From: Clostridia bacterium
Lineage (GTDB): Bacteria; Bacillota; Clostridia; Oscillospirales; RGIG577
Direction of reading: 5' to 3'
Length of the DNA: 52,835 nucleotides
Assembly: GCA_017405765.1 (NCBI GenBank)
Contig: JAFQZS010000009.1
Coordinates: 1 to 52,835, forward strand
The notes under the pieces are model-generated. The model searched no databases. It was not told where the DNA came from and saw nothing but the letters and a program-made list of their open reading frames with translations. Position numbers and translations under genes: made by a program. This document shows, one piece after another, positions 4,253 to 20,184 of this stretch. Position 1 is the stretch's first letter; each line of letters starts with the position of its first letter.

Positions 4253-6685
4253 TCAAATATCTGCGTCCCTACTTATCGCTTCATTTATAATTGTGACAGT
4301 TTTTTCATCATCCCGATCATTTCCGTATATCGAAAGGTACGTTTTATAGTATTCTTTCGGGTAATGAAGCTTGTACCAAGCGAGTCGTATGTCGTTGATC
4401 ATATATGCAGCTGCGTGAGCTTTCGGAAACATATATCGGATCATTCTCAAACTCTCGATATACCATTCGTGCACTCCATGCTCGAGCATATCGTTTATAA
4501 TCTCCTCTGTTAAGATTTGATTTGCTCTGCCCTTGCGGGTAGCCTCCATTATTTTGAACGAAGTTTCTTTATCAAGTCCTTTCTTCATCAGATAATTCAT
4601 AATGTCGTCCCGTACGGCGGCGACGTCCGATAGCGAGCAGATTCCGTTGCTTATCAATTCCTGCGCATTGTCAAGCCATACGCCCGTTCCGTGAGAGAGA
4701 CCGGAAATTTTGGTAAGATCGGAAAAGTTTCTTGGTTCGCATAATTTTAACATCTGTCGAACAAACGGATCATCCGTTTCCGGAAGAGACAGCGTTCCCG
4801 TGTTGCATTCGAATTCTGCAGATGTTGCACCAAGCGCATCAAAAGAAGTATACAGGCTGTAGACGATCGGATCGTTCATTGGAATATCGCTGACTTTTAC
4901 ACCGGTGGTCTCCTCTAAATGATGGATCATATCAAAAACGGAATGCCCTAATATATCCATCGTAAGACAGCTGTCAAAAAGCCCATAAGCATGAAAATGT
5001 GTGGAAACTTTTTCATGTTCACTATCGCTGGCGGGATACTGAAGCGGGGTAAAATCCTCGGCGTCGAACCCGTCCGGGATTATTATTAGTGCTCCCGGGT
5101 GGCGTCCGGTGTTGCGTTTTATACCGATCAGACCTTGTGCCAACAAAGCGACTTCTTCTTCATTTATTGTTAAGTTGTGGTCTTTTATATAGAGATCGAC
5201 ATATTGTGTAGCGGTTTTTTCTGACATAGTAGAAATCGTACCCGCAAAAAAGACGTGGTCTCTTCCAAACATAGTGCGCAGACAGTTTTGCGCAAACGAT
5301 TGATATTCTCCCGCAAAATTCAAATCGATATCCGGGACCTTATCTCCATTTAATCCTGCAAAAGTTTCAAAAGGAACGTTATGCCCGTCGCCGTTCATTT
5401 TTGAAGAGCAAATCGGGCAGGCTTTATCAGACAGATCAAAGCCCGATCCTATTGTACCGTCTGCAAAAAACTCAGTATGCTTACAGGAAGGACAAACGTA
5501 ATGCGGCGCCAGAGGATTGACCTCGGTTATCCCGGCAAGAAAAGCGACAAGTGAAGAGCCGACAGAACCGCGAAATCCGACATGCCAGCCGTGCGCTTCG
5601 GAATCTTCAACCAGGCGTTTGGCAATAACATAGATAACCGAGAATCCGTTTTCAATGATTGTTTTAAGCTCATATCCAAGACGGTCGCTCACAACACCAG
5701 GTAACGGATCTCCGTAGATCCTTTTTGCACGAGAACGAACGCACGCTTGCAGTTCATCATCCGAACCGTCAATATGAGGGAGAAACATACTATTTGGAAT
5801 CGGCTGTAAAACTTCTATACTATCGGCGATGCGGCTCGGATTGATCACGACTACTTCGTGTGCTTTTTTCTCCCCCAGATAAGAAAACTCGTCAAGCATC
5901 TCATCAGTTGTCCTCAAATACAACGGTGCCTGATCATCGGCGTTCTTCGCACCGCGTCCATGCATAAGAATGCGGCGATAGACTTCGTCTTCGGGGTCGC
6001 AGAAGTACACGTTTCCAGCGGCGCAAACAGGAATGTTTAATTCCTCTCCCAAGCCAACTGCAACTCGGTTGTATTCCATAAGTTGCTCTTGCGTTATCGT
6101 TCTGTCGTTTTCAAACACAGAACGGTATGTATCGATCGGTTGTATCTCTAAATAGTCGTAGTATTCTGCAATTCTGCGAAGTTCTTCCCGCGGTTTCTCA
6201 TCAATCACGGCTCGAAACAGTTCTCCAGACGTGCAACACCCGATAAACAAACCGTCACGCAATTCGTTCAATTTTTCCTTTGTAACGCAGGGCGTGTTCT
6301 TGTAAAGGTTTTTAATATGCGACCACGACACCAGTTTATACAGATTCTTCAGTCCTTTTTGACTCTTAGCCAAAAGAACTGCGCAAGACTGAAAACCCGT
6401 TTCGGCGTCACGTATAATCGCTTCCATGCCGTAAATCACTTTGATTGGCGTTCCCTTATTCGCAAGCTGTTCGGCAATTCGAAATGCCTCGGGAAACGCC
6501 TGTACCACATAATTATCTGTGATGGCGACCGCTTTATGTCCAAACTCAACTGCACGACAGATCAACGCTTCGGGAGAGGATACTCCATCCATGGCTGACA
6601 TTTTGGTGTGCAGATGCAGCTCGACTCTTTTTGTGTCAGCATTATCTTTTCGTTCAGTTCGGGCTTTGTAAAGACTATATTTCAT
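4253..6685 (-). CDS. Miniature PolC-like DNA polymerase III alpha subunit
   Basis: 810 residues from the ATG that follows GGGAGGAAACCTCA. Full PolC is about 1430 residues. Present: a PHP domain (HLH at 24-26), the four-cysteine zinc site (C398, C401, C423, C426), FRGSVGSS (371-378), and the palm with PDIDLNF (Asp452, Asp454) and MDILGH (Asp577), matching the three catalytic aspartates of PolC, then the fingers with FPKAHAAAY. Missing: the N-terminal OB region, the DEDD 3'-5' exonuclease normally inserted in PHP, and the C-terminal helix-hairpin-helix and clamp-binding tail. The PHP motif TDH is TDN here. It looks like an active polymerase core without proofreading or clamp contacts, so an accessory repair or defence polymerase rather than the replicase. 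It is probably co-transcribed with rtcB from the promoter at 6896-6924. Confidence 0.85.
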   Translation of the reverse strand: MKYSLYKARTERKDNADTKRVELHLHTKMSAMDGVSSPEALICRAVEFGHKAVAITDNYVVQAFPEAFRIAEQLANKGTPIKVIYGMEAIIRDAETGFQSCAVLLAKSQKGLKNLYKLVSWSHIKNLYKNTPCVTKEKLNELRDGLFIGCCTSGELFRAVIDEKPREELRRIAEYYDYLEIQPIDTYRSVFENDRTITQEQLMEYNRVAVGLGEELNIPVCAAGNVYFCDPEDEVYRRILMHGRGAKNADDQAPLYLRTTDEMLDEFSYLGEKKAHEVVVINPSRIADSIEVLQPIPNSMFLPHIDGSDDELQACVRSRAKRIYGDPLPGVVSDRLGYELKTIIENGFSVIYVIAKRLVEDSEAHGWHVGFRGSVGSSLVAFLAGITEVNPLAPHYVCPSCKHTEFFADGTIGSGFDLSDKACPICSSKMNGDGHNVPFETFAGLNGDKVPDIDLNFAGEYQSFAQNCLRTMFGRDHVFFAGTISTMSEKTATQYVDLYIKDHNLTINEEEVALLAQGLIGIKRNTGRHPGALIIIPDGFDAEDFTPLQYPASDSEHEKVSTHFHAYGLFDSCLTMDILGHSVFDMIHHLEETTGVKVSDIPMNDPIVYSLYTSFDALGATSAEFECNTGTLSLPETDDPFVRQMLKLCEPRNFSDLTKISGLSHGTGVWLDNAQELISNGICSLSDVAAVRDDIMNYLMKKGLDKETSFKIMEATRKGRANQILTEEIINDMLEHGVHEWYIESLRMIRYMFPKAHAAAYMINDIRLAWYKLHYPKEYYKTYLSIYGNDRDDEKTVTIINEAISRDADI

Positions 6686-6895
6686 TGAGGTTTCCTCCCA
6701 TATCATTTTCTTGTTCCAAAATTCATAAAAACGGTCCCGGTATTACCATGACGATCCCGGCAATTATGGTTTAGCTGCTTTTTTATAACATTTCCCAATA
6801 GAAGATCCGATAAATACAAACATACCTTATTTTCGCAGCTTTTTATGATCCGGCATCACGTATTCCATCGCTTTTATGCTCCTGATTTGCGGCTA
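6686..6895. other. Intergenic leader of the PolC-like gene
   Basis: There is no gene between the PolC-like start and the divergent promoter region. The stretch would be the 5' untranslated leader of the PolC-like/rtcB transcript, about 200 nt. It contains the repeated TCCCGG elements and the partial inverted repeat AGCTGC...GCAGCT, but I recognise no known riboswitch. Confidence 0.4.
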
Positions 6896-6955
6896 AATAT
6901 ATAATACCATATAAAATGCACCATTTTTGGTTCCTGATATAAGCTTTAATATTGA
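6896..6955. promoter_or_regulatory. Divergent promoters with the shared GGTGCA operator
   Basis: Minus strand (toward the PolC-like gene): ATGGTG at -35 (6924-6919), 17-bp spacer, TATATT at -10 (6901-6896). Plus strand (toward the DUF2779 gene): TTGGTT (6927-6932), 17 bp, TATTGA (6950-6955). The core ACCATTTTTGGT is palindromic and serves both directions. The same GGT(G/A)C element sits at the -35 of three other promoters in the island. Confidence 0.6.
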
Positions 6956-7008
6956 TAAAGCTCATATTGTCATGTTAAAATGAAAGCAGCGCCGCAGTGG
7001 AGGTTATT

Positions 7009-8505
7009 ATGCTTAATTTTTCCAAATCCAAATATTGCGGTCTTTGGCAATGCCCGAAGATCGCATGGCTCCAAAAGTATAAGCCGGAAGAAATGCACAT
7101 AGAAAGTGACGTTACGGCACGTCTTGCGGCAGGCAACGAAGTCGGCGATCTTGCTATGGGGATTTTCGGTGATTATGTTGATGTCACATCATATGAGGGA
7201 GAAAAGATCGATCTTTCCAAGATGATCGATAACACACGCATTGAAATGTTGAAAGAAACGCCTGTAATATGCGAAGCATCGTTTGCTTATGAGGGATTAT
7301 ACTGCGCCGTTGATATATTACGGCGGGAAAACGGCGGCTGGGCTATCTATGAAGTAAAAAGCTCTACTCATGATGACAAAGAAGTCTATTACGCCGACGT
7401 ATCTTATCAAAAATATGTGTTGGAGCACTGCGGCGTAAAGGTGACCGGAACATATTTAGTATATTTGAACGGAGCGTATGTTTTTGACGGAGAACTTAGG
7501 CTTGACGAGTTGTTTCGTATAACTGACATATCTGATAATATTAAGAGCGAATGGGCTCAGATAGAAGCGAATATCAAAACCGCTCAGGTAATGTTGGAAA
7601 GTGCCGAAGAGCCTGCTCTCGATTTGTCTGTTCGCTGTAAGTCGCCTTACATGTGCAATTTCTGGGGATATTGCACACGCGATTTGCCTAAACCGTCTGT
7701 TTTCGATCTGTATAACTTATTCTTTGCAAAAAAACTTGCCTGCTACAAAGCAGGGCTCATTTCCTTTGAATCGCTGGAACGCTCCGGACGGATCAGTAAT
7801 GACAAGCAAATGAGGCAAATTGATTTTGCGCTTCATAAAAGGGAAACTCATATAGACAAGCAAAACATCAAACGCTTCTTGAACGGTCTGTCATATCCCC
7901 TGTACTTTCTCGATTTTGAGACGATGCAGCCGGTCATTCCCAAATATATAGGAACGAAGCCGTATGCTCAAATTCCTTTTCAGTATTCTCTGCATTACAT
8001 TGAACATGACGGCGGCGAGCTTCTGCACAAAGAGTTCCTCGCCGAGCCTGGGACCGATCCAAGGCGAGCTCTTGCAGAAAGGCTATGCGAAGATATCCCG
8101 ATGAACGTATGTATCACGGCGTATAACAAAACTTTTGAATGCACACGCATCAAAGAACTTGCCGAGATCTTCCCGGATCTTTCCGAGCACTTGCTGAATA
8201 TATGTGATCATATAGTCGATCTGCTTGTTCCGTTCCGGTCCGGCTGGTATTATAACCGTGCAATGGGCGGAAGTTTTTCGATCAAGAGTGTGCTTCCGGC
8301 GATTTTTCCCGATGATCCGTCGCTTGATTATCATAACCTTGAAGGCATTCATAACGGCGGTGAAGCGATGAACGCTTTCCCGGCGATGGAAGAAATGACG
8401 GCCAAAGAGCAAAAAATAACGCGCCGAAATCTGCTCAAATACTGTGAACTCGACACCTATGCAATGGTCAAGGTGTGGAAGGAATTGAGACGGGCAGCAG
8501 AATAA
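7009..8505 (+). CDS. DUF2779 protein: Cas4/RecB-like nuclease fused to a DEDD exonuclease
   Basis: 498 residues. The N-terminal half has the RecB/Cas4-type PD-(D/E)XK pattern: Asp102 (VDIL) and EVKSS (Glu115, Lys117). It is followed by Cys210, Cys216 and Cys222, which with Cys10 could ligate a Cas4/AddB-like [4Fe-4S] cluster. The C-terminal half is a DUF2779 domain with the exonuclease signature YFLDFETMQP (Asp302, Glu304) and a late CELDTYAM block carrying the last acidic residue. The predicted role is DNA (or RNA) end processing. The start ATG is preceded by GGAGGTTATT; an upstream in-frame GTG at 6997 is less likely. It is the only plus-strand gene of the island and shares its promoter region with the PolC-like gene. 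Confidence 0.75.
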   Translation: MLNFSKSKYCGLWQCPKIAWLQKYKPEEMHIESDVTARLAAGNEVGDLAMGIFGDYVDVTSYEGEKIDLSKMIDNTRIEMLKETPVICEASFAYEGLYCAVDILRRENGGWAIYEVKSSTHDDKEVYYADVSYQKYVLEHCGVKVTGTYLVYLNGAYVFDGELRLDELFRITDISDNIKSEWAQIEANIKTAQVMLESAEEPALDLSVRCKSPYMCNFWGYCTRDLPKPSVFDLYNLFFAKKLACYKAGLISFESLERSGRISNDKQMRQIDFALHKRETHIDKQNIKRFLNGLSYPLYFLDFETMQPVIPKYIGTKPYAQIPFQYSLHYIEHDGGELLHKEFLAEPGTDPRRALAERLCEDIPMNVCITAYNKTFECTRIKELAEIFPDLSEHLLNICDHIVDLLVPFRSGWYYNRAMGGSFSIKSVLPAIFPDDPSLDYHNLEGIHNGGEAMNAFPAMEEMTAKEQKITRRNLLKYCELDTYAMVKVWKELRRAAE

Positions 8506-8514
8506 TAAAAGTCA

Positions 8515-8727
8515 TTACTGCTTTGATTTTGCATATCTTTGCCGCATATCCCACCTAACGATCCATTCCGCGATCCCGATCCTTCGCGATATGTAAGGAC
8601 AGAGAAGAAGAGCATTTTCCTCCTTATATTTTTCAACGAGGCTATTAACGGCGGCGTTGATCCCTTTACATGAAACGCCGCCGTTTTCCTGCAATACGGA
8701 TTCAAATTCATAAATCATAGTTTTCAT
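8515..8727 (-). CDS. Small hypothetical protein, third gene of the protease operon
   Basis: 70 residues, helical and charged, with no recognised motif and no membrane segment. Its ATG overlaps the stop of the preceding gene as ATGA, a classic coupling arrangement, and this is the main reason to accept it. It ends 10 bases from the stop of the convergent DUF2779 gene. Function unknown; it may work with the degenerate ATPase and FtsH-like protease encoded upstream. Confidence 0.55.
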   Translation of the reverse strand: MKTMIYEFESVLQENGGVSCKGINAAVNSLVEKYKEENALLLCPYISRRIGIAEWIVRWDMRQRYAKSKQ

Positions 8728-9452
8728 TTAGCAATCCTTATTTGATGCATGATCAACAACTTTTGCCGATCGATTTTATGATAGTATTTTTTGATCAAGT
8801 TGACATTATCCGGCGACGGATCTTTCACTAACAACGGCTTCCCCTCATAATGCAGATCACGCATTTTCCCGAAATCATCCCAAAAGCAAACCGTATCGAT
8901 AAAACGTATTGCACAGTTATCCTCGTCTGCTGCTGCGGCGGATCTTCGATTCAAATGATCCTTTAGGCACCTTTTAAACGAGCTTGTAGCTCCCATTCCA
9001 TCGGTAGCACGAGCAAGCTCACTTGTGCGGTTGCATTCCTCTTTTGCTTCATACCGCTCCAAACCGTAATTCGCCCCGCTTTTTGATCCATCAAAAAAGG
9101 ATATCTTATTTTCCTCCTCGCAGCGTCTCATAACTGAAGAGTAGTCGTAAGCCGCTTCTTCTACTGTCCCGTCTTTATTGACTCGAACTGCTGATATCTT
9201 TGTCGAAACGACGTTCGATTTGACCTGATATTTCAAATTATCAACGATCACTTCGGCATACAGTTTTGTACATTGACCCGCCGCGACCGGCGGGTCAATG
9301 TCATCTGTTGAGGCGTACAGCAAAAGGATCCTAACAGCTGAAGCTAACGCGTGTGAGTCACATGTTTCGATCAGCGCAACTGTTTTAGGAAGCTGCATAT
9401 CAAAATGCGTGATCGATCCGAAATTATCGATCGTGAGCCGTTTGATATACAT
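8724..9452 (-). CDS. Truncated RecF/SMC-like protein with a degenerate P-loop
   Basis: 242 residues. The first 50 residues (IKRLTIDNFGSITHFDMQLP, then a strand and a helix) resemble the start of RecF/OLD/YhaN-type ATPases, where a GxxGxGKS P-loop should follow. Here that place reads ETCDSHALAS, so nucleotide binding is probably lost. No Walker B or signature motif is apparent in the rest. It starts 9 bases after the FtsH-like gene ends and overlaps the next small gene. It could be a structural or sensing subunit that kept the fold but not the ATPase. The family link is suggested by the N terminus only. Confidence 0.5.
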   Translation of the reverse strand: MYIKRLTIDNFGSITHFDMQLPKTVALIETCDSHALASAVRILLLYASTDDIDPPVAAGQCTKLYAEVIVDNLKYQVKSNVVSTKISAVRVNKDGTVEEAAYDYSSVMRRCEEENKISFFDGSKSGANYGLERYEAKEECNRTSELARATDGMGATSSFKRCLKDHLNRRSAAAADEDNCAIRFIDTVCFWDDFGKMRDLHYEGKPLLVKDPSPDNVNLIKKYYHKIDRQKLLIMHQIRIAK

Positions 9453-9461
9453 GGTCCCGGA

Positions 9462-10766
9462 TCAGATTACGACTGGGATGACCCGGCAGCTGTGCTTGAT
9501 GCGGCCGATATCTGCCGCGGTGAGGATCCCTTTTTCAGACAGTTCGGACGCAATGGATTCAAACAAATCATGGTTGACAGACAGGATCTCTTTTGTTTTT
9601 CTGTACCATCGTTCCAATTCGGACGATACCGCCTGTTCCTGTTTCGATCTGAGTTCCGAAGAATCGTCGAAACCGTTGCTGTGTAAACTGAAGCCGCATA
9701 CACAGTTCTCTGTAACAAGATCCCAAACAGAACCGAATGCATGATCAAGATCGTTCGAAGACCCGACGTCAACGATCCCGTATTTCTGCTCCAATGCCGC
9801 TATGCCTCCAAGCGATCCGCAAATATGTGCATATCTGGTTTCTGTAGAATGCCTTGCATTGCTTCGATAGTATGAAGTAAATCCGCTGGACTGCCCTTCG
9901 CTGCTGTAAGCCGAGATAAGCGTCACGGTACCGGGATCCAATACTTCTGCAACGGTTGCATGGCCCGCTTCATGATACACGATACGCGCTCTTTTATCTT
10001 TTCCATTTGAAAGATCTGTTTTAGGTGCGGCAACGTTCATCACTTCATTAGGCACATCATAAACAGTATGCAGGCACGCTTTCATAAAATGCTCCATCGT
10101 TATTGCATCTGAGCGTTCAAAGCCTGCGTAAAGCCCGGCTTCATTGATGACAGTCTCCAGTTCTGCACAGGAACGGTCGTCCATGATTTTTGCAACTACG
10201 GCGGCGTCAATGTCGCCGACAAATTTCTTATTTTTTATGTAATGGTTGATGATCTTCACCGCATCTTCACCGCGAGGATTATTAACTTCGATCACACGAT
10301 CAAACCGTCCGGCGCGAAGAAGCGAACGCGGCAGAGCGCGAAGACTGTTTGCAGTAGCGAGGACAAATACTTCCTTTCCCTTGATATCGTCAATACACGA
10401 CTGAACGGTAACGTATTCTTCCGCATCGGGGTGACGATCGTCTCCGTTTGTGAACTTATCCATATCGTCAAGAAACACAATGGAAGGCGCTGCGGCTTTT
10501 GCATCCGTAAACGTCTTTTTAATTGCCTTGATGAAATCACCGTTGGGCTTATCTTTACGGCAGATGAAAGCCTTACGTCCGCTTTCGGCGATCACAGCGC
10601 TTGACATCAGCGTTTTTCCGACTCCGGGATCTCCGTGAAGCAGAAGTCCGCGCGGAGAAGTTACGCCCAGCTTTTTATACACTTCGTTATTTGCAAGAAC
10701 GTCGCTTATCTGTATAAGTTCCCGTTTGATCGCTTCGTAGCCGATGATCTTTTCAAACTCTTTCAC
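9462..10766 (-). CDS. Soluble FtsH-like AAA+ zinc protease
   Basis: 434 residues from the chosen GTG. AAA+ module: Walker A GDPGVGKT (45-52), Walker B IVFLDDMD, sensor ATANS and arginine finger region LRAGRFDR. Protease module: the zinc motif YHEAGH (His265, Glu266, His269) and a downstream SSNDLDHA supplying Asp340, as in peptidase family M41. FtsH proteins are about 600 residues with two N-terminal transmembrane helices; this one has none, so it should be cytosolic. Start choice: AGAGAGG lies 8 bases before GTG 10766, whereas the ATG at 10787 would sit about 4 bases from the predicted transcript start. It is the first gene of a three-gene operon. Confidence 0.8.
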   Translation of the reverse strand: MKEFEKIIGYEAIKRELIQISDVLANNEVYKKLGVTSPRGLLLHGDPGVGKTLMSSAVIAESGRKAFICRKDKPNGDFIKAIKKTFTDAKAAAPSIVFLDDMDKFTNGDDRHPDAEEYVTVQSCIDDIKGKEVFVLATANSLRALPRSLLRAGRFDRVIEVNNPRGEDAVKIINHYIKNKKFVGDIDAAVVAKIMDDRSCAELETVINEAGLYAGFERSDAITMEHFMKACLHTVYDVPNEVMNVAAPKTDLSNGKDKRARIVYHEAGHATVAEVLDPGTVTLISAYSSEGQSSGFTSYYRSNARHSTETRYAHICGSLGGIAALEQKYGIVDVGSSNDLDHAFGSVWDLVTENCVCGFSLHSNGFDDSSELRSKQEQAVSSELERWYRKTKEILSVNHDLFESIASELSEKGILTAADIGRIKHSCRVIPVVI

Positions 10767-10797
10767 TTTCAAAACCTCTCTTATCATTCTTATTTCG

Positions 10798-10835
10798 TAG
10801 ATATATTATCGTTTGTAGCGCACCTGATTTGGTGC
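10798..10835 (-). promoter_or_regulatory. Promoter of the FtsH-like operon with GGTGC operator
   Basis: Minus strand: CAGGTG (10826-10821) at -35, 17-bp spacer, TATCTA (10803-10798) at -10. The -35 belongs to the perfect dyad GCACC-N6-GGTGC (10820-10835). Its geometry is identical to the other three island promoters carrying this element. Confidence 0.6.
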
Positions 10836-12857
10836 TTAAGAAGCAAATCCTATAGTACGTTTCTTTAACTCGCTTTTTACAGCCGGGATCTCTATATCTT
10901 CATCTTTAAGGGACATAAGCGTTTTTGCGTCTACGAGATCCGGATCCATTGCGAGAATTCGGTTTGCCTGATTCATTTTAGATATTTCAAGCAGATTTCT
11001 GACGAATCTTCCGTTGCCGAAATCCGTCCTTGTTCTTGCGCTTTCAAACACGACCGACAACTTTTCAATCGCCTTGTCTGTTAAAGTAATTCCTTTTGAT
11101 CTTCCTATCATCTTTGCTATCTCGCACAGTTCTTCTGTAGTGTAATCCGCGAAGGGCACATGGAAGGCAATGCGTGAACGCAAACCGGGATTCTTATTCA
11201 GAAACGACTCCATTTCATCGGGATAACCTGCAAAGATCACAACAAGATCCTCCCTGCGGTTTTCCATTTCCTGAACGATGGTATTGATCGCTTCATCACC
11301 GAACAATCCGGCGCGGCCATCCACAAGCGAATACGCCTCGTCAATAAACAGTACGCCGCCCATCGCCGCTTTGAATTTGTCTTTTACGATCTGTGCCGTC
11401 CAGCCGACGTATTTTCCGACGAGATCGCTTCTGCCCACCTCAACGAGCTGACCTTTGGAAAGCAATCCGTTTTCCTTCATGATACGGGCAAAAAGCCGCG
11501 CGACAGTCGTTTTGGCAGTCCCGGGATTCCCGGTGAACACCATATGCATTGACGGACGATCCTGCTTGACGCCTTTATCCTTATATATCCGTTGAAGCTT
11601 GTAATAATTCAACGCTTTGCCTATGACGGCTTTTGCGTCTGCAAGGCCGATCATCTCGTTAAGGTCGTCATACGCTGTACCGCGAGCGACTTCCTTTATC
11701 GTTTCTTTACGGCAAACCTGAATATCTTTATACTGCGGGAAAACGGACGTCTTCATTTTATCGTTGTACCATTCGTTGAACATGGCGCGAAGTTCATCAG
11801 GCAAATACTGTTTTTCGGGTTCCAAATCTTTATACAGCTTCTTGTCAGGTCTTATGTGGTTATCCCCGCAAAGCATTTTCAAATATTCTGTTGATTTTTC
11901 AATGTCGGCAAGATCCTCTTTGATCTCCACGATTCCAATGGAACCGAGGTTTTCACAGAATAGTTTTTTTACCTTTTCGCAGGTGCGCGGCAAGCAGAAT
12001 ATTGTCAACACCTGATTGCGGTATTTCATCATTGTTTCGCAAAGAGCCAAGATTGTTTCCATCTCGCTGTTTGCGTAATCGTCGTCATCGGAATCATCTT
12101 TTGCCATATAACGAACCAGGATCGCACCTCCAATACAGCTCTTATACAGAGCATCATATACGATGTGCGAAAAATTCCGCCCCGGAAAAAAATCAATGAA
12201 GCAATAACGGCGACTCTTGATACGATCATTGTCATACAGTGCCTGAAGAAGTGTGTGCGATAACTCTTTGCGAGTATCCCGGTCGTCGGTTTCAATCATA
12301 TAATGCACAGGATGACCAAAAGCTTTAGTATTTGTCTTTTTGGAGTAGATCCTGTCAAGCTCCGGGCGCAATGTTTCTTCCGCAAGGAGCTTTCTTGAAG
12401 ATTCATACAACGAGGATCTATCCGTTACCTCGCCGAGCAGGTTTTCACCATATTCGATTCCATAATTATATCCGCTGATCTTATCAAGATCAAAACGCTC
12501 AAGAACATCATCATCGTCCTCGATATAATTGCAGCGGTCTGCGCTACTGAGAAGATTCTTCATGGAAGAAAAGGTGATCTCATATACATCCAGGTCCTTG
12601 GCGATAATACCGAGATATTTGAAATAAGAACGCGCCAACTTTTTGGCATCGATCGACGAAGGGGAAATGATCCCACATGTGATCTCATTGAGACCGAGAT
12701 TGGAAATAAAGCAGTATGTCCCTTTTTTGTATCGCTCATTGTAATCTTCGCTTTTTCCCGCAATTTGTCTTGTTCGTTCTTCTTTTACTCTTCGATCATT
12801 GTTTCCTTCCACCCATTTTTCATCGCCAAGCATTGCGGTGGCTTTATAAAACAACAT
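10836..12857 (-). CDS. CbxX/SpoVK-type AAA+ ATPase with a large N-terminal region
   Basis: 673 residues from ATG 12857, which follows GGGAGGTAATAAT; an ORF extension to 12992 would cross the promoter. The C-terminal 270 residues are a complete CbxX/CfqX-family AAA+ domain: Walker A TGNPGTAKTT (about 442-451), GRSDLVGKYVG, Walker B GVLFIDEAY, AGYP, and the arginine-rich GNGRFVRN. The N-terminal 390 residues are unrecognised; a middle part (RYCFIDFFPG, then ILVRYMAKDD) may be a degenerate second AAA-like domain. Relatives act as remodelling chaperones or in secretion. Here it is a single-gene unit with its own copy of the shared operator. Substrate unknown. Confidence 0.75.
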   Translation of the reverse strand: MLFYKATAMLGDEKWVEGNNDRRVKEERTRQIAGKSEDYNERYKKGTYCFISNLGLNEITCGIISPSSIDAKKLARSYFKYLGIIAKDLDVYEITFSSMKNLLSSADRCNYIEDDDDVLERFDLDKISGYNYGIEYGENLLGEVTDRSSLYESSRKLLAEETLRPELDRIYSKKTNTKAFGHPVHYMIETDDRDTRKELSHTLLQALYDNDRIKSRRYCFIDFFPGRNFSHIVYDALYKSCIGGAILVRYMAKDDSDDDDYANSEMETILALCETMMKYRNQVLTIFCLPRTCEKVKKLFCENLGSIGIVEIKEDLADIEKSTEYLKMLCGDNHIRPDKKLYKDLEPEKQYLPDELRAMFNEWYNDKMKTSVFPQYKDIQVCRKETIKEVARGTAYDDLNEMIGLADAKAVIGKALNYYKLQRIYKDKGVKQDRPSMHMVFTGNPGTAKTTVARLFARIMKENGLLSKGQLVEVGRSDLVGKYVGWTAQIVKDKFKAAMGGVLFIDEAYSLVDGRAGLFGDEAINTIVQEMENRREDLVVIFAGYPDEMESFLNKNPGLRSRIAFHVPFADYTTEELCEIAKMIGRSKGITLTDKAIEKLSVVFESARTRTDFGNGRFVRNLLEISKMNQANRILAMDPDLVDAKTLMSLKDEDIEIPAVKSELKKRTIGFAS

Positions 12858-12890
12858 ATTATTACCTCCCTGTCTCATCGTGTATTTCAT

Positions 12891-12930
12891 CTTACGGTAT
12901 AATGATACCGTAAGTAATGCACCAAAATCG
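12891..12930 (-). promoter_or_regulatory. Promoter of the CbxX-type gene: GGTGCA operator plus a 10-bp palindrome
   Basis: Minus strand: TTGGTG (12925-12920), 17-bp spacer, TTATAC (12902-12897). Overlapping the -10 is a perfect inverted repeat, CTTACGGTAT-AATG-ATACCGTAAG (12891-12914). Upstream of the -35 the sequence ACCTCCCGATT closely matches the same position at the helicase-operon promoter. Confidence 0.65.
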
Positions 12931-12961
12931 GGAGGTAATGATTTTAAGAAAAAGCAATTTG

Positions 12962-14302
12962 TCAGACGGTGATTCTTGCTATTTTTCCCCAAGGCGGATT
13001 GACTTCTTCATTGTTTAACAGCCACAACACTGGGATCCCCATAGACAGTTTTTCCTTCGGAAACGGCGCAAAACCGTCTGTCAGAATTATGATACTTGCC
13101 GGGAGCTTATCCTGCATATGTTTGTGGACGTACTCAAAAATTATTTGAAAGTCCGTTCCTCCGCCGCCTGCAGGCTTTATGATTTTAAACTCTTCAAGTG
13201 ATGTAAAAGGTTTTGGTTCAATAATTGCCGCATCAAAGAACCCAAGCCACCCTTTCAGTTTACCGTCAAACTGATCGATAGCTCCTTTAACTTCTGAATA
13301 CGCAGCAGTAATCATATCGTCAGACATACTTCCGGATGTATCAATCATAAACAGAATATCTTCAACCAGATCGTCTTTGTCATTAAAGTCGGGCAAGAAA
13401 AATGGGCTCTCGTCGAAACGTCTGTCGGGCGGAGTAAAAGAGTAGTCCACAATTTCTTCCTGAACAAAATCGTTCAATATCATACGCCAATCTGTTTGAG
13501 GTTTGCGTAATTCTTTGAATAATCGTTCCGCGAACAACGGGAGAAGGCCTCTTTGATTAGACGGATCGCGAATAGATATCGCTTCACAAGCATCTTCAAA
13601 ACGTTTGACCCAAACGTCTCTGAGGGTATCGTCTTCTTTCTCCATTCCCCAACGAGTGTGATCATCCCAAACTGCCGGAGCATCTGTTTTCTTGTCTTGT
13701 TTTTGTTTTGCTCGCCCCAAAGCACTGGGGGGTGCGTCTCCTTCTTCGGCTCCTTTTGCGTCTCCTTCTTCATCTCCTTCTTCGGCATAGCCTCCCGACT
13801 CGCCCAAGGTTCCAATCAAAGCAGGTTTTGGTTTCCTGTTTTTGGGAGGCGGCGGAAGCATTCCGTAGATCTGTTCTGCAGTGTACTCATATCCTTCTTT
13901 CCCATCTGGAGCTACGTGCATGGATTCCCCATATTTTTTCAGAGTGATCGCCTTTCGATTCATATTATTTGACAACAGAATATTTGAGTTGACAACGATA
14001 TCACAGGCAATGTTAAATTGTTCGTTATCACGATTTCCTTGACGCATACAGTGTTGCAAAACGACGTGAAGTATCTCATGCATCATAATGAAATCAAGTT
14101 CCGAATCACTGAGTTCGTCCAGAAACTTCGGTCCGAAGAATATCCGGCGTCCGTCTGTGGCGGCTGTTTCACAGTTTTCATCAATCGAATAAATCATGTG
14201 CATTAACAGCAAGCCGTAGAAGCCATTGTTTATGAGCAGGCGCATGCGCGACATCAGGAGTCGCTTCATATATTCTTTTTTCTTTTCATCTGACAGAACC
14301 AT
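12962..14302 (-). CDS. VWA-like protein with a putative metallopeptidase domain (DUF2201 type)
   Basis: 446 residues. The N-terminal region has a zinc-metallopeptidase-like HEILHVVLQH motif (75-84). A low-complexity acidic linker (about 150-200) follows, and then a C-terminal von Willebrand A-type domain with the MIDAS motif DTSGSMS and a later ILTDGFAPFP. This two-domain arrangement is typical of the VWA partner of MoxR AAA+ ATPases, which together act like metal-chelatase or protein-remodelling machines. The start overlaps the MoxR gene by 17 bases behind GGGAG. It is the last gene of a four-ORF operon with the SNF2 helicase; transcription comes from 18.8 kb. Whether the HExxH motif is proteolytic is unknown. 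Confidence 0.8.
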   Translation of the reverse strand: MVLSDEKKKEYMKRLLMSRMRLLINNGFYGLLLMHMIYSIDENCETAATDGRRIFFGPKFLDELSDSELDFIMMHEILHVVLQHCMRQGNRDNEQFNIACDIVVNSNILLSNNMNRKAITLKKYGESMHVAPDGKEGYEYTAEQIYGMLPPPPKNRKPKPALIGTLGESGGYAEEGDEEGDAKGAEEGDAPPSALGRAKQKQDKKTDAPAVWDDHTRWGMEKEDDTLRDVWVKRFEDACEAISIRDPSNQRGLLPLFAERLFKELRKPQTDWRMILNDFVQEEIVDYSFTPPDRRFDESPFFLPDFNDKDDLVEDILFMIDTSGSMSDDMITAAYSEVKGAIDQFDGKLKGWLGFFDAAIIEPKPFTSLEEFKIIKPAGGGGTDFQIIFEYVHKHMQDKLPASIIILTDGFAPFPKEKLSMGIPVLWLLNNEEVNPPWGKIARITV

Positions 14303-15251
14303 TCATCAAACTCCCTTTTGTCTGCAGCCATTTACTGAACTCCGGAATAGTCATCAATGTCTGCTTGAAGTCTTTTTCGATGTACATATAGTCTTTAAGC
14401 AGAACCGCGCTGAAATCCGGGGGCATTTTGTCTGCGTAACGAATTGAATTGGCGATCCGCCCAATATTATCTTTATGAGCACGCGCATAACAAGTCATTG
14501 AAGCGGTCAGGGCGTACATAGCGTCTGTATTTTGAGGCATCTTTGGCATTTTCCCGTCGAATATATCTTCAATTGACGGCAAATCATCACTGCCTGGATC
14601 AAATCCCATAAGATAATTCTGCCTGAATGATAGAAATCCGATCACTTTATCATTGATACTGGAAGTAATTGCCCACTCTTTCCACGATTTGAAGCTTCCT
14701 TCAACTTCAATATGCATAAGACGGTTTGCCAGAGCTTTCGGCATTTTGAATGCAACCGATTTGTCTGTTGTACGGTTACCGGCTGCGATAACGATGCAAT
14801 TGTCCGGGAGCTTATGTTCTCCGACAATTCGATCCAGCGTTATCTGATATGCGGCGGCTTGAACAGACTGAGGCGCAGCAGAGATTTCATCAAGGAACAA
14901 GATATTTACCAAATTGTCCGATGGATCCATCTGAAAGATCTGCGGTTTCAGCCAAACTGCAAGTGTTTTATCCGCATTTGAAGTGGGGATACCTCTAAGA
15001 TCTATCGGGTTAAACAGAAGAAGTCTTACGTCGGTTACGTGAACGTCTTTCTTTGTGGCGTTTTTAATCTCTTTGGCTATCTGTCTGACAGCCTGAGATT
15101 TACCTACGCCCGGAGGGCCCCAAAGCATAACGGAGGGCATGGTTTTGATGGGTAATCCGTTGTTGATGACGGTGCTGTAGGCGTGACTTAGTTTATTGAC
15201 CATTTTTCCAACTGTCATTGAGGGTATATTCGTTAGTTTAACGTCGCTCAT
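14286..15251 (-). CDS. MoxR-family AAA+ ATPase
   Basis: 321 residues. Walker A GPPGVGKS (45-52), Walker B ILFLDEIS, then a sensor-like IAAGN and the arginine-bearing [14 protein letters not shown]. This is the AAA_5/MoxR pattern. Its ATG overlaps the helicase stop (ATGA) and its end overlaps the VWA gene, so helicase, MoxR and VWA proteins should be made together. MoxR ATPases usually work on or with a VWA protein to activate or remodel a target complex; here the target may be the helicase (inference from the operon). Confidence 0.85.
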
Positions 15252-17551
15252 TTTTTGTTCACTCCCAACTTCTTATCAAGTTCTTCAACTTTTTTCTTAT
15301 AGGTTTCAATCTTGTCTGCGTAGCTCTCGTCTTTAGCCAACTCAAACCGTATATCGCGTTCTTTTTCTTTCAACTTTTCAAGATTCATCTTCAGTTTGAT
15401 CAGGTGCTCTTCGAGAGAATCCAGATAATTGTCAATACGTATCAGATTACCTATATCCGTATCTCCGAGTTCAACGTAGTATTTTCCGCTCCTTTTAAGC
15501 CAAACATATGGCTTTTCACTTGTCATGTTTGCGGGAAGGACAATATCAAATCCCCAATATGACATAAGTGTTTTTTCTTTTGTCTCCAGCATGTTATCCT
15601 TAATCGCAGTACCGATAAACTCACGAAGAAGCTTTCGTTTTTCCGCCTCCTCTTTTTTCAACTTGTTGTCTTCAACAGGAGGATTGAACTTCTTCCATTC
15701 CGCGTAATATGCAATATCCAAACCGCAGTTTTCTATAAGCTTGATTTGGTTTTCTATTTGACCGGGGATCCCAAGCAACTCTTTTTCAAGCCGGATCCTC
15801 GACTCGACAAGTTTGCGTTGAAGAGTCAAGTATCGGGTCAATTCGTTAGCGGCTTCAACACGTTGTTTTACAAGCGGATCACCTACGGCAAGCGCCTTTA
15901 CTTCTGCATAATCAAGGACTGTATCTTCAATTTCAGCACCGCTTCGCTCGGTAAGCGATCCGGAAAGCAATCCGGAAATAAAGCGCTGCTTCGTTTCAAG
16001 AAGCTGCCATGAATATGCGTCAAAGCTTCCTACCGTGATATAACGGTAGATATAAACCTTTCCGCATGTATTTCCCTGACGAAGGATCCTTCCTTCACGC
16101 TGCGTCATATCTGCCGGTCTCCACGGAACATCAATGTGATGCAGCGCAATAAGGCGCTCCTGAATGTTGACGCCGAGCCCCAGTTTGAACGTTGAACCGA
16201 TCAAGACTCTGATATCGCCGCTTCTGACCTTTGCAAAAAGCAGAGATCTTTTTACTTCGGTTTCTGCATCGTGGACAAAGGCAATCTTGTCAGCCGGTAC
16301 GCCAAGCAGAACAAGCCTGTCTCTCAACTCAGAATAGATATTAAATCCGGTCTTTGGTGTTGAAGTATCGCAGAAAATGATTTGAGCGCTCTTATTTGCA
16401 TAGGTCTTGAAATATATGTCCGCTACGTTTTCGGAGCAACGAGCGACCTTTGACAGATAGGTAAACGTCGCCGAAGAATCGACAAGTCTTAAGTCCAATG
16501 CCGCCTTTCTGCCGTCGGTAGTGATCTTCAGCATATTGTCTTCTTTCCTGCTCACTCGCCCTCGCCTTACGTCATCCGCCCTTGTAGATATATCTGCCAG
16601 ATAAGCAGCAAATGCCGGAGTCTTCGAGACAAGTGCATCGTTGTATCCGTCAAATGCAGGAATACCTGCTGATTCATCAACCTGATGAAAATCGGCAATT
16701 GATGAAAGCAGAGATGCAAGTTCGGGAAGGTTATGAAACTTTACAAATCGTGTTGCAAGACGATAAGTACTTGTGTCCACGTCAATTTCAAATTCTGTAA
16801 CTCTCTCAGCGAACATTCCGATCCAGCTGTCAAAGCTTTGCAAATCAAGCATTCCAAGCTCACCGCTCTGAAGATACTGCTGCATGATATATGCGTCGGT
16901 GATGGAGTTGCTAATAGGTGTTCCGGTGGCAAGCACAACGCCCTTGCCATCATTCTTTTTCTGCACCATATGAACTTTGTCCATCATATCCCGGCATCGT
17001 TTAGAACCGGTGCTGTTTATGCCGAGAACATTATTCGCTTTCGTTTCAAGCGGAACATTTTTGAAATTGTGCGCTTCGTCAATGAACAGTCGTGTAATTC
17101 CAAGTTCGTCAAAATAGACGGCGTCGTACATATCATCAATGGCAATAGCAATTTCCGAAAGCGCTTTATTGATAGCTTCTTGCTTTTTCTTCAGCTTTGA
17201 CGTAGCTTTGCCTTTTTGGTTTAACACATTTGCCACGTTCTCTTTTTTTGCTTCTAACTCTTCATGATAATAGTCCTTTGAGAGAGGTATCTTTTCAAAG
17301 CAACTGTAAGCCATGATTATACCGTCATAATCAAGATCTCTTATTTGTTTAAGTACGTTTTCACGCTTTTGCGGTGTAAAAGTTTTAGGATCAACACAGA
17401 GCAGTTTTGCATTCGGGTACATCAGCGTAAAAGTATTCCGCCACTGACCGACGATATTGTTGGGTACTACATACAGGTTTTTCTTTGATAGCCCCATTCT
17501 GCGCATTTCCTGTCCTGCCGCTATCATGACATAAGTCTTTCCGGCGCCCAC
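15248..17551 (-). CDS. SNF2-family helicase, C-terminal part (frameshifted from the upstream ORF)
   Basis: 767 residues from a GTG that is almost certainly not a real start, because it lies inside helicase motif I (AHDVGAGKT). Motifs in order: [19 protein letters not shown] in [19 protein letters not shown], then the second RecA lobe with [12 protein letters not shown] and [12 protein letters not shown] coiled-coil C-terminal tail of about 200 residues follows. In the frame just upstream the sequence continues as PNTLLAHDV, joining the preceding ORF's [12 protein letters not shown] if one C is restored near 17574. The intact protein would be about 1170 residues, resembling the SNF2 helicase part of large helicase-methylase proteins of integrative elements, but without the methylase. 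Confidence 0.8.
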
Positions 17552-18774
17552 ATCGTGAGCCAGAAGGGTGTTAGGTGTAATATGATGCGTGCGACCGCGT
17601 CTTTCTGATAAGGATACAACTGCACAGCAGGCGACATGCCCGGAAACTCAAGGAATGAACCATCAAATAGTCTTCTTCGGACACAACTGAAATTGTTTTC
17701 AAAAATGATTTCAAGTCTTTCTTTTCTTGCGTCGTCTTCCCAAACCCATTTTTGAAACTCTTTTATGAGTTTCTGTTGCTTTTCAATTGCCGCCACCGTC
17801 TCTGCTTTGTTGATAACTCGCTTTTTACCGGAGTTGTTGGTAGGGCAACTTATTTCGTCGGTAACAGCGACGCTTTTCATGTTAAGAGTTTTTTCGAGGA
17901 TATGAAGAGCTTCCATTTTGTCGGTTCCATATGTTTTTCTGACGCCGACACTGTGATTGTATCTTGATTTGCACGGTATTTCCCAAGTTCCGGTGATCTC
18001 ATCATGTATTGTTTTCCACGATCCTGTTATTTCATCTTTATTGTAACAACTCCAACCGTGCTTGAATGGATCTCCGAACAAATGAAGTATAAAATCATCA
18101 ATAATATCAGCCGGAACCCAAGGAGATCCGAGCGTGATATAAATATCCTTCGTTGCAACTGTAGGGGGAAGGAGCTTCTCAATTGCTTTTATATTGTCGG
18201 AAAAATATCCGTTATACTCTTTATTTGCCTCTTTTGCGGATTTCCACTTCCGCATAAGATTTCCGGACAGGTATTCTTCCGCAGTTTCCCATCCCTTATA
18301 GAAATACTCACCCCACGTATCCGGATTTTGATAGATTGCCCCTTTGAGAGTGCTGATAACAGTCTTATAGTCTGAACCTGTAATCGAAGAAATGTATTCA
18401 ATATCTACTTTTCCGAGTGTGGTCAGACTGATTATCAAAGCATCAGGAATACTGTCCGTGTGTACGCCTTGCGCACGGACATCCGAATTAAACACGTTAT
18501 TCCAGTCCAAAGGAAGGTCCATGCAGGTTACTTCCTGTATATGGGCTTCTTTGAGTTCTTTTTCTTCGCGTGCTTTACGTTCAGCTTCCTCGCGTTCACG
18601 CTTTTCTTTTTCCTTCTTCTCTCGACATTTGGCACGAGACTGCCATTCTTGAAGCTTTCCGATTGCGGCTTCGAGTTCATCACTCGAAAAATCAGCCCCA
18701 GCTGCACTAGACATTTTCAAAATATCAAATATACTGAGTTGTTCAAACTTGTTATCCGACTTATTGTCACTCAT
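17524..18774 (-). CDS. SNF2-family helicase, N-terminal part
   Basis: 416 residues, first ORF of the helicase operon. It has a charged coiled-coil segment (about 45-75), a middle domain with [18 protein letters not shown] and [20 protein letters not shown], resembling the region that precedes the SNF2 motor in large helicases of mobile elements, and then the motor entry motif [13 protein letters not shown]. The last 17 residues (LHLTPFW...) are off-frame. The reading frame breaks at about 17574-17575, where GG on the plus strand should be GGG to keep the frame into motif I. This is a deletion, a programmed shift or a sequencing error; no classic slippery heptamer is visible. Confidence 0.75.
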
Positions 18775-18797
18775 ATATAGCCTCCCTGCCCGTACTG

Positions 18798-18837
18798 ATA
18801 ATAATTTAACTTATGGCATGTACCAAATATGGGAGGT
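18798..18837 (-). promoter_or_regulatory. Promoter of the helicase-MoxR-VWA operon with GGTACA operator
   Basis: Minus strand: TTGGTA (18826-18821), 17-bp spacer, TATTAT (18803-18798), then GCAGGGAGG as ribosome binding site before the ATG at 18774. The block ACCTCCCATATTTGGTACAT aligns with ACCTCCCGATTTTGGTGCAT at the CbxX-type promoter. Confidence 0.65.
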
Positions 18838-18851
18838 TGCCTTTGAGCATT

Positions 18852-18883
18852 AAAAAAGGACCGTGAAATCACGATCCTTTTTT
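18852..18883. terminator. Bidirectional terminator hairpin
   Basis: AAAAAAGGA-CCGTGA / TCACGATCCTTTTTT, an almost perfect inverted repeat with A-run and T-run on either side. It would end the WYL regulator transcript before the helicase operon promoter. Confidence 0.7.
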
Positions 18884-18930
18884 GGGTTGTCGGAGTTTTA
18901 GTATGAGACGGTTCTGATATTACGTCAGGT

Positions 18931-19044
18931 TTAAACAAAATAACAAATTGAAGTGAGTTCTTTTTCAACATCCGCATATGCTATTTTGTTCTTCTTGGTG
19001 CCATCCGAGAATACAAACCTAAAACAATTGTCATCTTCGCACAT
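18931..19044 (-). CDS. Possible small protein gene downstream of the WYL regulator
   Basis: A 37-codon frame (MCEDDNCFRFVFSDGTKKNK and so on, ending ICYFV) reads like a real beta-rich peptide. The same frame continues upstream as KDDKERIKV without a start codon. A better start, AAAGG followed by ATG at about 19065, is one base out of frame. The gene may therefore be a slightly longer one with a one-base lesion, or a remnant. Low confidence. Confidence 0.25.
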   Translation of the reverse strand: MCEDDNCFRFVFSDGTKKNKIAYADVEKELTSICYFV

Positions 19045-19104
19045 TACCTTAATGCGCTCTTTATCATCCTTTATTCTCTGTACACTCCTTGTTAGAGTTG
19101 TTAT

Positions 19105-20124
19105 TTATCTGTTCTGCTTTTCCCCAATGTCGGTATCAGACCTCTTCTTATACTTCTCCGAACCGTTCTCCAAAGCCTCTCTCATTCGGTCGCGCAGAGA
19201 TTCCGGCGAAACGATCTCAACATGATCGATATACTGCATAGCCCAGTGTTCCATTGCCATTGGGCTGACTTTTACCGAAACCTTAAGCTGCTTTTCTCCA
19301 TGTTTACTAATACGGATATCCTTGCCAAACCAGTCGATGATCTGATCGATGATGTAGTCTTGTGCGATAAATTCGACCCGTTCCGGTTTGTCGGTGTACA
19401 TATAAGGGAGTGCTGTTGCCAATTCTTTATAATTGATACCGTTTTCATGTCCTTCAACCGAAGTGATCGGAACGAGTTTATCCTCGGTTATGGTCATATT
19501 GGTGATCCGATCGAGGCGGTAATAGGCCATGTTTTTCCAATATTCATTGCGTGCCATAAGATAGTAGCGCTGATTATGCAAAATAAGCTGATAGGGGCTT
19601 GCGTGGTGCGTCCTAGTCTTATGCAGTTTTTTATCTGTGCCGTATTTGTTGTAGTCAAAGCGTATTTGCCGTTTTTGTTCTATGGCTTCATCGATGATCT
19701 CAATATTATAGAAAAGCGCCTGATTCTCGGTTTTATCCCAATCGTTTACCTTATGAATGTGCTTTACATGCGATCTGAAATACATGCTTGAAAGAGAACA
19801 AAGCTTATCGATAAGATCTTTGGAATACTTCGGTGCAATATGTTTGCTTGAAAGCACACCGTCAATAAGGATGCGAAGCTCGGCGTCGGTAAAATCTCGT
19901 TCATCAAGATAACTGCCGGCGCGTCTTGACTCAATTTCAAACCCGGCTTCCCTAAGCAATGAGATATTCCTGCTTATTGCTTTCCTTTCGATAACAATGC
20001 CGTAGTCGCTGTTAAGATAATGTGCAATATCCGCTTGCTTCAGCGGATGATCGTAATCGCTGTATGTCTTAAATATCTGCAGCATGCGTATCAACGCAAG
20101 TTTTTTCGGCTCTAAACTCTCCAT
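19105..20124 (-). CDS. WYL-domain transcriptional regulator
   Basis: 339 residues. N-terminal winged helix-turn-helix (about 10-65: KLALIRMLQIFKTYSD, QADIAHYL, KAISRNISLLREAGFEIE). Central WYL/beta domain with IRFDYNKYG and HASPYQLILHNQRYYLMA, where YQLILHNQRYYL is this protein's version of the WYL core. The C-terminal extension has IDWFGKDI and the final RDRMREAL segment. WYL regulators sense a nucleic-acid-type or other ligand and control DNA-damage or phage-defence genes in several bacteria (for example PafBC). The start ATG follows TTTGGAGG. Its location next to the island and the shared operator at five promoters make it the likely master regulator; this is inference. Confidence 0.85.
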   Translation of the reverse strand: MESLEPKKLALIRMLQIFKTYSDYDHPLKQADIAHYLNSDYGIVIERKAISRNISLLREAGFEIESRRAGSYLDERDFTDAELRILIDGVLSSKHIAPKYSKDLIDKLCSLSSMYFRSHVKHIHKVNDWDKTENQALFYNIEIIDEAIEQKRQIRFDYNKYGTDKKLHKTRTHHASPYQLILHNQRYYLMARNEYWKNMAYYRLDRITNMTITEDKLVPITSVEGHENGINYKELATALPYMYTDKPERVEFIAQDYIIDQIIDWFGKDIRISKHGEKQLKVSVKVSPMAMEHWAMQYIDHVEIVSPESLRDRMREALENGSEKYKKRSDTDIGEKQNR

Positions 20125-20155
20125 GTTGAACCTCCAAATTTATTTTATGCTTGTT

Positions 20156-20184
20156 ATTGTACTATATTTGGTGCATAAAATCAA
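20156..20184 (-). promoter_or_regulatory. WYL regulator promoter with the operator inverted inside the spacer
   Basis: Minus strand: TTGATT (20184-20179), 17-bp spacer, TACAAT (20161-20156), a near-consensus promoter. The spacer contains TTATGCACCAAATAT, the shared ATTTGGTGCATAA element in the opposite orientation to that in the target promoters. Binding here should block the promoter, which suggests autorepression. Confidence 0.6.

Follow-up and report, generated by a model that had tools for sequence, protein, structure and literature searches.

A 20-bp dyad in phase with the −10 element suggests DriD-type activation of a mobile AAA+/VWA/SNF2 gene cluster by a WYL protein in Clostridia

The window analyzed here, a stretch of 52,835 nucleotides (nt) from the genome of a Clostridia bacterium (order Oscillospirales; contig JAFQZS010000009.1 of assembly GCA_017405765.1), carries a cluster of genes for AAA+, VWA, SNF2, PolC-like and RtcB-like proteins together with the gene of a WYL-domain regulator. 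A short motif recurs ahead of several of these genes and lies reversed ahead of the regulator gene itself (wyl). Comparison with related loci suggests that the motif is one arm of a dyad through which the WYL protein probably activates the cluster and represses its own synthesis.

Most genes of the cluster are encoded on the minus strand. The regulator (19105–20124) is a protein of 339 amino acids with a winged helix-turn-helix (HTH), a WYL domain (Pfam match at 2e-12) and a WCX domain (6e-7). On the same strand lie the genes for a SNF2 helicase, a MoxR-type AAA+ ATPase (14286–15251), a DUF2201 metallopeptidase-like protein with a VWA domain (12962–14302), a SpoVK/CbbX-like AAA+ protein (10836–12857), an FtsH-like AAA+ protease with a Peptidase_M41 domain (9462–10787), a 242-residue protein to which no family was assigned (8724–9452), an 817-residue PolC-like protein with PHP and polymerase III alpha regions (4253–6706) and an RtcB-like RNA ligase (3056–4183). 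The gene for a DUF2779/Cas4-like nuclease (6997–8505) is located within the same cluster on the plus strand. The 242-residue protein gene is likely co-transcribed after the FtsH-like gene, and the RtcB-like gene is probably co-transcribed with the PolC-like gene. The SNF2 gene is split into an N-terminal part (17524–18774) and a C-terminal part (15248–17551) that includes the Walker A sequence VGAGKT; in related locus L034 the two form a single continuous open reading frame (ORF). A single-base frameshift near 17585, ahead of the Walker A sequence and within 17524–17600, separates the parts, and could be either a sequencing error or a real inactivation.

An earlier note on this DNA had reported the motif at five places, and all five were confirmed. 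Four copies are on the minus strand: ATGGTGCAT near 6916, upstream of the PolC-like gene; CAGGTGCGC near 10817, upstream of the FtsH-like gene; TTGGTGCAT at 12917, upstream of the SpoVK-like gene; and TTGGTACAT at 18818, upstream of the SNF2 gene. The fifth copy, at 20167, is on the plus strand and thus reversed relative to wyl. Comparison of upstream sequences from relatives shows that the complete element is an inverted repeat of 20 bp, ATGYACC-N6-GGTRCAT, and that a −10 hexamer of the form TANNNT starts exactly 9 nt past its right arm, GGTRCAT. The GGT(G/A)C sequence first noticed is therefore real, but it is only half of the dyad. Likewise, the sequence ACCTCCC(G/A) that had been seen upstream of two promoters is there, although it is the degenerate left arm CTCCC rather than a separate element.

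Each of the four minus-strand copies can accordingly be placed in a predicted operator–promoter. That of the SNF2–MoxR–VWA operon (18803–18835; CTCCC-atattt-GGTACAT-N9-TAAATT) has counterparts before SNF2 genes in L034, L041, L070, L079 and L149, and that of the SpoVK/CbbX-like gene (12902–12934; CTCCC-gatttt-GGTGCAT-N9-TATCAT) in L070, L081, L140 and L141. The predicted operator–promoter of the FtsH-like gene (10803–10835; GCACC-aaatca-GGTGCGC-N9-TAATAT) is matched in L033, L142, L143 and L146, and that of the PolC-like gene (6901–6933; GAACC-aaaaat-GGTGCAT-N9-TATTAT) has a counterpart before the PolC-like gene in L139.

The phase between dyad and −10 element was examined by a search that began from the dyad. 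GYACY-N6-GGTRCAT, with at most one mismatch, occurs 152 times in 34 related loci (536 kb). TANNNT is found at offset 9 in 33 of these dyads, compared with 0–11 dyads at each of the other offsets between −4 and 29. Hexamers that match TATAAT in at least five of six positions number 26 at offset 9 versus 0–7 elsewhere. Eight Markov-shuffled versions yielded 38–77 dyads, with TANNNT at offset 9 in 0–2. All 33 offset-9 sites lie 4–262 nt ahead of start codons. The spacing of 17 bp between motif and −10 that had been proposed does not hold: the true −10 begins 12 bp after the hexamer chosen in the earlier note, and TANNNT occurs at offset 14 in 8 dyads versus 33 at offset 9.

If the −10 hexamer occupies positions −12 to −7, then the right arm GGTRC spans −28 to −24, the left arm spans −39 to −35, and the center of the dyad is near −31.5. 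Since the −10 is only 9 nt past GGTRCAT, the arm is not at −35, where it had first been placed; what lies at −35 is the middle of the repeat GYACY-N6-GGTRC. The best −35 match is 0–2 of six positions in 28 of the 33 target promoters, which is worse than in shuffled sequence. In L047, a single dyad between two divergent genes has −10 hexamers at offset 9 on both sides (6770/6785). These poor −35 boxes, the strict −10 phase and the symmetrical dyad of L047 together argue for activation.

A different explanation for the same promoters is that the WYL protein is a repressor of the BrxR/CapW type everywhere, and that the dyad over the −35 region keeps RNA polymerase out until a signal lifts the block. 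The defense-associated WYL proteins BrxR and CapW are repressors, and BrxR binds inverted repeats (PMC9122601; PMC9122588). Moreover, at wyl a standard promoter clearly lies under the dyad (eight promoters; see below). However, target promoters that lack a −35 box would need help to fire, and the strict 9-nt phase is as expected for an activator, whereas the sites of repressors can vary widely in position. The L047 dyad, with −10 hexamers in phase on both sides, and the finding that activators are the best structural matches to this protein also speak against repression throughout, which we regard as unlikely.

The sites recur before the same gene families in different genera. Counted over the 33 offset-9 sites plus two further sites in L081, the loci with a site number six each for SNF2 and WYL genes, four for FtsH-like, three for SpoVK-like, and two each for NAD-dependent DNA ligase and NADAR genes. 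With a leave-one-locus-out matrix, most loci of WYL-bearing genomes score 20–40 bits and shuffled sequences mostly below 13. This matrix added sites before RtcB (L131), PolC-like (L139), SpoVK-like (L070, L140) and FtsH-like (L142) genes, as well as before a homolog of the 242-residue protein in L132, which is distant (28%). In contrast, L035, L040 and L043, homologous clusters that have no close WYL gene alongside, score 3–6 bits by the same matrix and have no site. The whole genomes of L035 and L040 contain no WYL match at 1e-25, and in the genome of L043 a gene for a close WYL protein, with a site of its own, lies on a different contig.

The bare motif is far less informative than the composite. 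The 10-mer TTTGGTGCAT, with one mismatch, has 6 matches in the window versus 3.7 expected, and 113 in the 2.17-Mb genome versus 71 for a reversed control. With no enrichment in the window and a mild one in the genome, it was rejected as evidence. The statistical case is the composite (dyad, N9 and TANNNT) and its conservation, not the 10-mer. The bare 10-mer is hardly above chance. The earlier note would have been contradicted by a motif that is common across the genome ahead of unrelated genes; the composite proved rare genome-wide and so does not contradict it.

Orthologs of the WYL protein at 55–78% identity are present in 17 other genomes of the order, so that the clade is held by 18 of 394 genomes (55–100% identity); the genome of the window (G000) has a single WYL gene at an E value of 1e-25 or better. 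Seven of the 18 WYL-positive genomes contain the strict composite, GYACY-N6-GGTRCAT-N9-TANNNT, versus 11 of the 376 others (Fisher p 3e-6). A relaxed composite gave 21 matches in 19 WYL-positive genomes (reversed control, 5) versus 3 in 19 others (control, 1). In the genome of the window, a very relaxed composite has 10 matches versus 7 for the control. Three of the 10 are cluster promoters, one is a terminator-like hairpin, and two, on contigs C47 and C12, are identical and include the promoter of a NADAR gene.

It is conceivable that another regulator common to these genomes binds the dyad and that wyl is merely one of its targets. The WYL gene does carry the dyad as a target would, a perfect dyad stands at a NADAR gene in genome G002, where the best WYL protein is only 45% identical, and some composite matches are in genomes without a close WYL protein. 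Nevertheless, the sites co-occur strongly with the WYL clade, the dyad is kept at the wyl promoter even where few cluster genes are left (L146, L147), and the recognition helix of the WYL protein is conserved. This explanation appears highly improbable, although no systematic search for other shared regulators was made. Among the WYL orthologs the HTH sequence ERKAISRNIS is conserved, and all 17 retain residues such as R203 and the sequence DKKLH unchanged.

The promoter of wyl differs from those of the other genes. As had been noticed, the reversed element lies within a good promoter, TTGATT-N17-TACAAT (20156–20184, minus strand), and the dyad reaches both its spacer and its −10. The predicted self-operator is GCACC-aaatat-AGTACAA (20142–20174, minus strand). 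The same layout is found in the eight orthologs compared (the window, L034, L139, L140, L141, L142, L146 and L147), which have the promoter TTGnnn-N17-TACAAT (N18 in L139). In all eight the dyad spans spacer and −10, with the right arm GGTACAA overlapping TACAAT. Binding at this position should exclude RNA polymerase, and self-repression by the WYL protein is thus expected; the conserved predicted operator agrees with what the earlier note had supposed.

A possible second −10 at wyl, TAAAAT (20147–20142), is located 9 nt beyond the dyad. TANNNT occurs at this offset in six of the eight orthologs, compared with 0–2 at other offsets, and the second hexamer matches TATAAT in at least four of six positions in all eight. 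The dyad may therefore mark a second, WYL-dependent start, which, with the dyad itself and its 9-nt spacing, refines the original proposal. Because the second −10 ends 17–22 bp ahead of the start codon, the leader would be only about 10 nt long. We tentatively suggest, as somewhat doubtful, that the wyl dyad is a promoter switch that turns the standard promoter off and the second one on. If so, then the supply of the regulator would shift from constitutive to signal-dependent.

To our knowledge, few regulators are commoner near bacterial defense genes than WYL proteins, and the characterized defense-linked members are repressors. The characterized WYL activators that we know of come from Caulobacter and actinobacteria. 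A Foldseek search with an AlphaFold model of the WYL protein ranked the activator DriD first (1.8e-13, full-length), followed by PafBC (3e-11) and then WYL1, BrxR and CapW (BrxR and CapW at about 1e-6). The N-terminal helical HTH region of the model is of high confidence.

DriD is a WYL activator of Caulobacter crescentus (PMC12340889; PDB 8tp8, 9pfv). Its sites are 20-bp pseudo-palindromes that overlap −35, at a fixed distance from −10, with −35 matches of 1–2 of six (PMC12340889). The Clostridial system has the same winged HTH–WYL–WCX layout and likewise a palindromic site of about 20 bp, which is centered on the −35 position and keeps a constant distance from the −10. Its target promoters, too, have poor −35 boxes (0–2 of six in 28 of 33), and one site lies in the regulator's own upstream region. 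When the didA, bapE and driD promoters are aligned on a conserved G at −14, the distance from site center to −10 is 18.5 bp for DriD, with the choice of its −10 inferred, versus 19 bp here. In contrast, the operators differ (ATACGAC-N7-GTCGTAT versus ATGYACC-N6-GGTRCAT). The protein is no sequence ortholog of DriD and would resemble it in mode of action. Moreover, DriD controls core repair or death genes in Caulobacter, whereas the predicted targets here form a mobile AAA+/VWA/SNF2 cluster, and the predicted operator of wyl lies over the −10 of a standard promoter.

Other WYL regulators are less close. PafBC is an actinobacterial activator that works by sigma adaptation, with a −26 element in place of the −35 box (PMC11804915). 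One arm of the present dyad, at about −28 to −24, recalls this element, but PafBC is a heterodimer in which PafB alone reads the −26 motif, whereas here the dyad is symmetric and there is one WYL gene. SiwR of Mycobacterium smegmatis is a WYL homodimer with a 19-bp imperfect palindrome between −35 and −10 and a conserved GGA at −26 (PMC10693628). It also acts through the −26 region, but on a single neighboring operon, with other targets and another sequence. BrxR and CapW resemble the protein in standing beside defense genes and in self-repression, as predicted for wyl (PMC9122601; PMC9122588). In contrast, they are repressors, are weaker structural matches and have no fixed phase to a −10 that lacks a −35 box. 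Their trait of an operator over an otherwise complete promoter is seen at wyl but not at the target promoters. No Clostridial WYL activator regulon was found in the literature available as open-licence papers.

The reading best supported by these comparisons is activation of the cluster combined with self-repression, to which the fixed −10 phase, the −35-less promoters, the conserved predicted operator over the −10 of wyl, the co-occurrence with the WYL clade and the DriD-like geometry and structure all point. We assign a probability of roughly 75% to the proposal that a DriD-type WYL activator controls this mobile AAA+/VWA/SNF2/RtcB/PolC cluster in gut-type Clostridia and represses itself. 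We infer from sequence comparison that the WYL protein is what binds the dyad and that binding activates. The protein would bind ATGYACC-N6-GGTRCAT, probably as a homodimer, at the SNF2–MoxR–VWA operon, the SpoVK-like and FtsH-like genes and the PolC-like/RtcB genes, and elsewhere at DNA ligase and NADAR genes. With the dyad centered near −31.5, astride the place of the −35 box and ending 9 nt before a good −10, the dimer would flank region 4 of sigma-A and, like DriD in Caulobacter, bring RNA polymerase to promoters that have no −35 box. At wyl, the bound dyad would shut the standard promoter, and the second −10 may give WYL-dependent transcription. By analogy with DriD and PafBC, whose ligand is single-stranded DNA, the signal may be single-stranded DNA from damage or phage. 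If this proposal is true, then an activator of DriD geometry in Clostridia ties WYL signaling to activation of a mobile AAA+/VWA/SNF2/RtcB cluster, and searches with the code ATGYACC-N6-GGTRCAT-N9-TANNNT can uncover more members of an unstudied regulon that probably responds to phage or damage.

Several observations weigh against this proposal. The left arms of the SNF2 and SpoVK-like sites are poor (CTCCC), and no clear site is present at wyl in L131, L132, L135 and L145 despite a close WYL ortholog. Some composite matches are terminator-like, a hairpin followed by T runs (G000:C47:103487, G001:C95:3085 and G328:C7:1150990). Without these the association of the strict composite with the WYL clade falls to p 3e-4, and the G000 match is still counted among the 33 offset-9 dyads. 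Some loci were used both to build and to test the motif, an overlap that the leave-one-out and order-wide tests address. The AlphaFold model is middling (predicted local distance difference test score 68, predicted template modeling score 0.34), so that the structural ranking is supportive only. A phmmer search of the PDB with the single WYL sequence returned nothing, identity to DriD is very low, and a profile search reached DriD and PafC weakly (E about 0.004).

The gene content of the cluster was mapped in related loci by tblastn. The presence of SNF2, MoxR–VWA, RtcB and nuclease-like genes, with NADAR and ligase partners, favors a conflict or damage response as the predicted function. Of 393 other genomes of the order, 9 encode a homolog of the VWA protein, as do 8 more in a class-wide sample; the scatter of these homologs across genera fits a mobile cassette. 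The whole gene set was matched by no PADLOC model of a known defense system, and only partial matches were returned (helicases of DISARM, Zorya and others; WYL; IetA-like AAA). The FtsH subsystem of the MoxR–vWA ternary conflict systems likewise brings MoxR, vWA and FtsH-like genes together (PMC7159879; WYL appears there in the reference list only). However, its FtsH component has two AAA+ domains, whereas here there is one AAA domain with Peptidase_M41, and its other partners differ from the SNF2, SpoVK-like, PolC-like, RtcB and DUF2779 genes found here.

Further features were observed at individual sites. Between the PolC-like and DUF2779 genes (6916–6955), the dyad has −10-like hexamers 9 nt out in both directions, TATTAT and, toward DUF2779, TTTAAT, and may serve both directions, as the L047 dyad would. 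In the leader of the SpoVK-like gene (12858–12938, minus strand), ATTACCTCCC overlaps the left arm and complements the ribosome-binding region GGGAGGTAAT. A strong hairpin (z −5.3) is predicted to hide this region in read-through RNA, as if blocking translation of read-through transcripts; the pairing was not seen at the L140 homolog. Additional composite-like promoters in the genome of the window, at G000:C47 near 97419, 99347 and 104110 and at G000:C12:17828 (L077), precede a DUF6557 gene, a NADAR gene and a small ORF, with the C12 site identical to the NADAR promoter. These are possible trans targets of the WYL protein. In L031, a perfect palindrome, GTGTACCGTTTTCGGTACAC, is located at 565 just upstream of a TTGACA box; this arrangement is unlike most others, and the WYL clade is missing from that genome.

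Decayed copies of the cluster were seen in L149 (G107) and L047 (G346), where the SNF2, VWA and MoxR genes are truncated. Both retain the WYL gene and intact operator–promoters, some of which stand before small lipoprotein-like genes. In the window, genes for a RES-domain protein, an Xre-like HTH protein and a DUF3990 protein adjoin the cluster (368–2863) and have the look of a toxin–antitoxin-type module.

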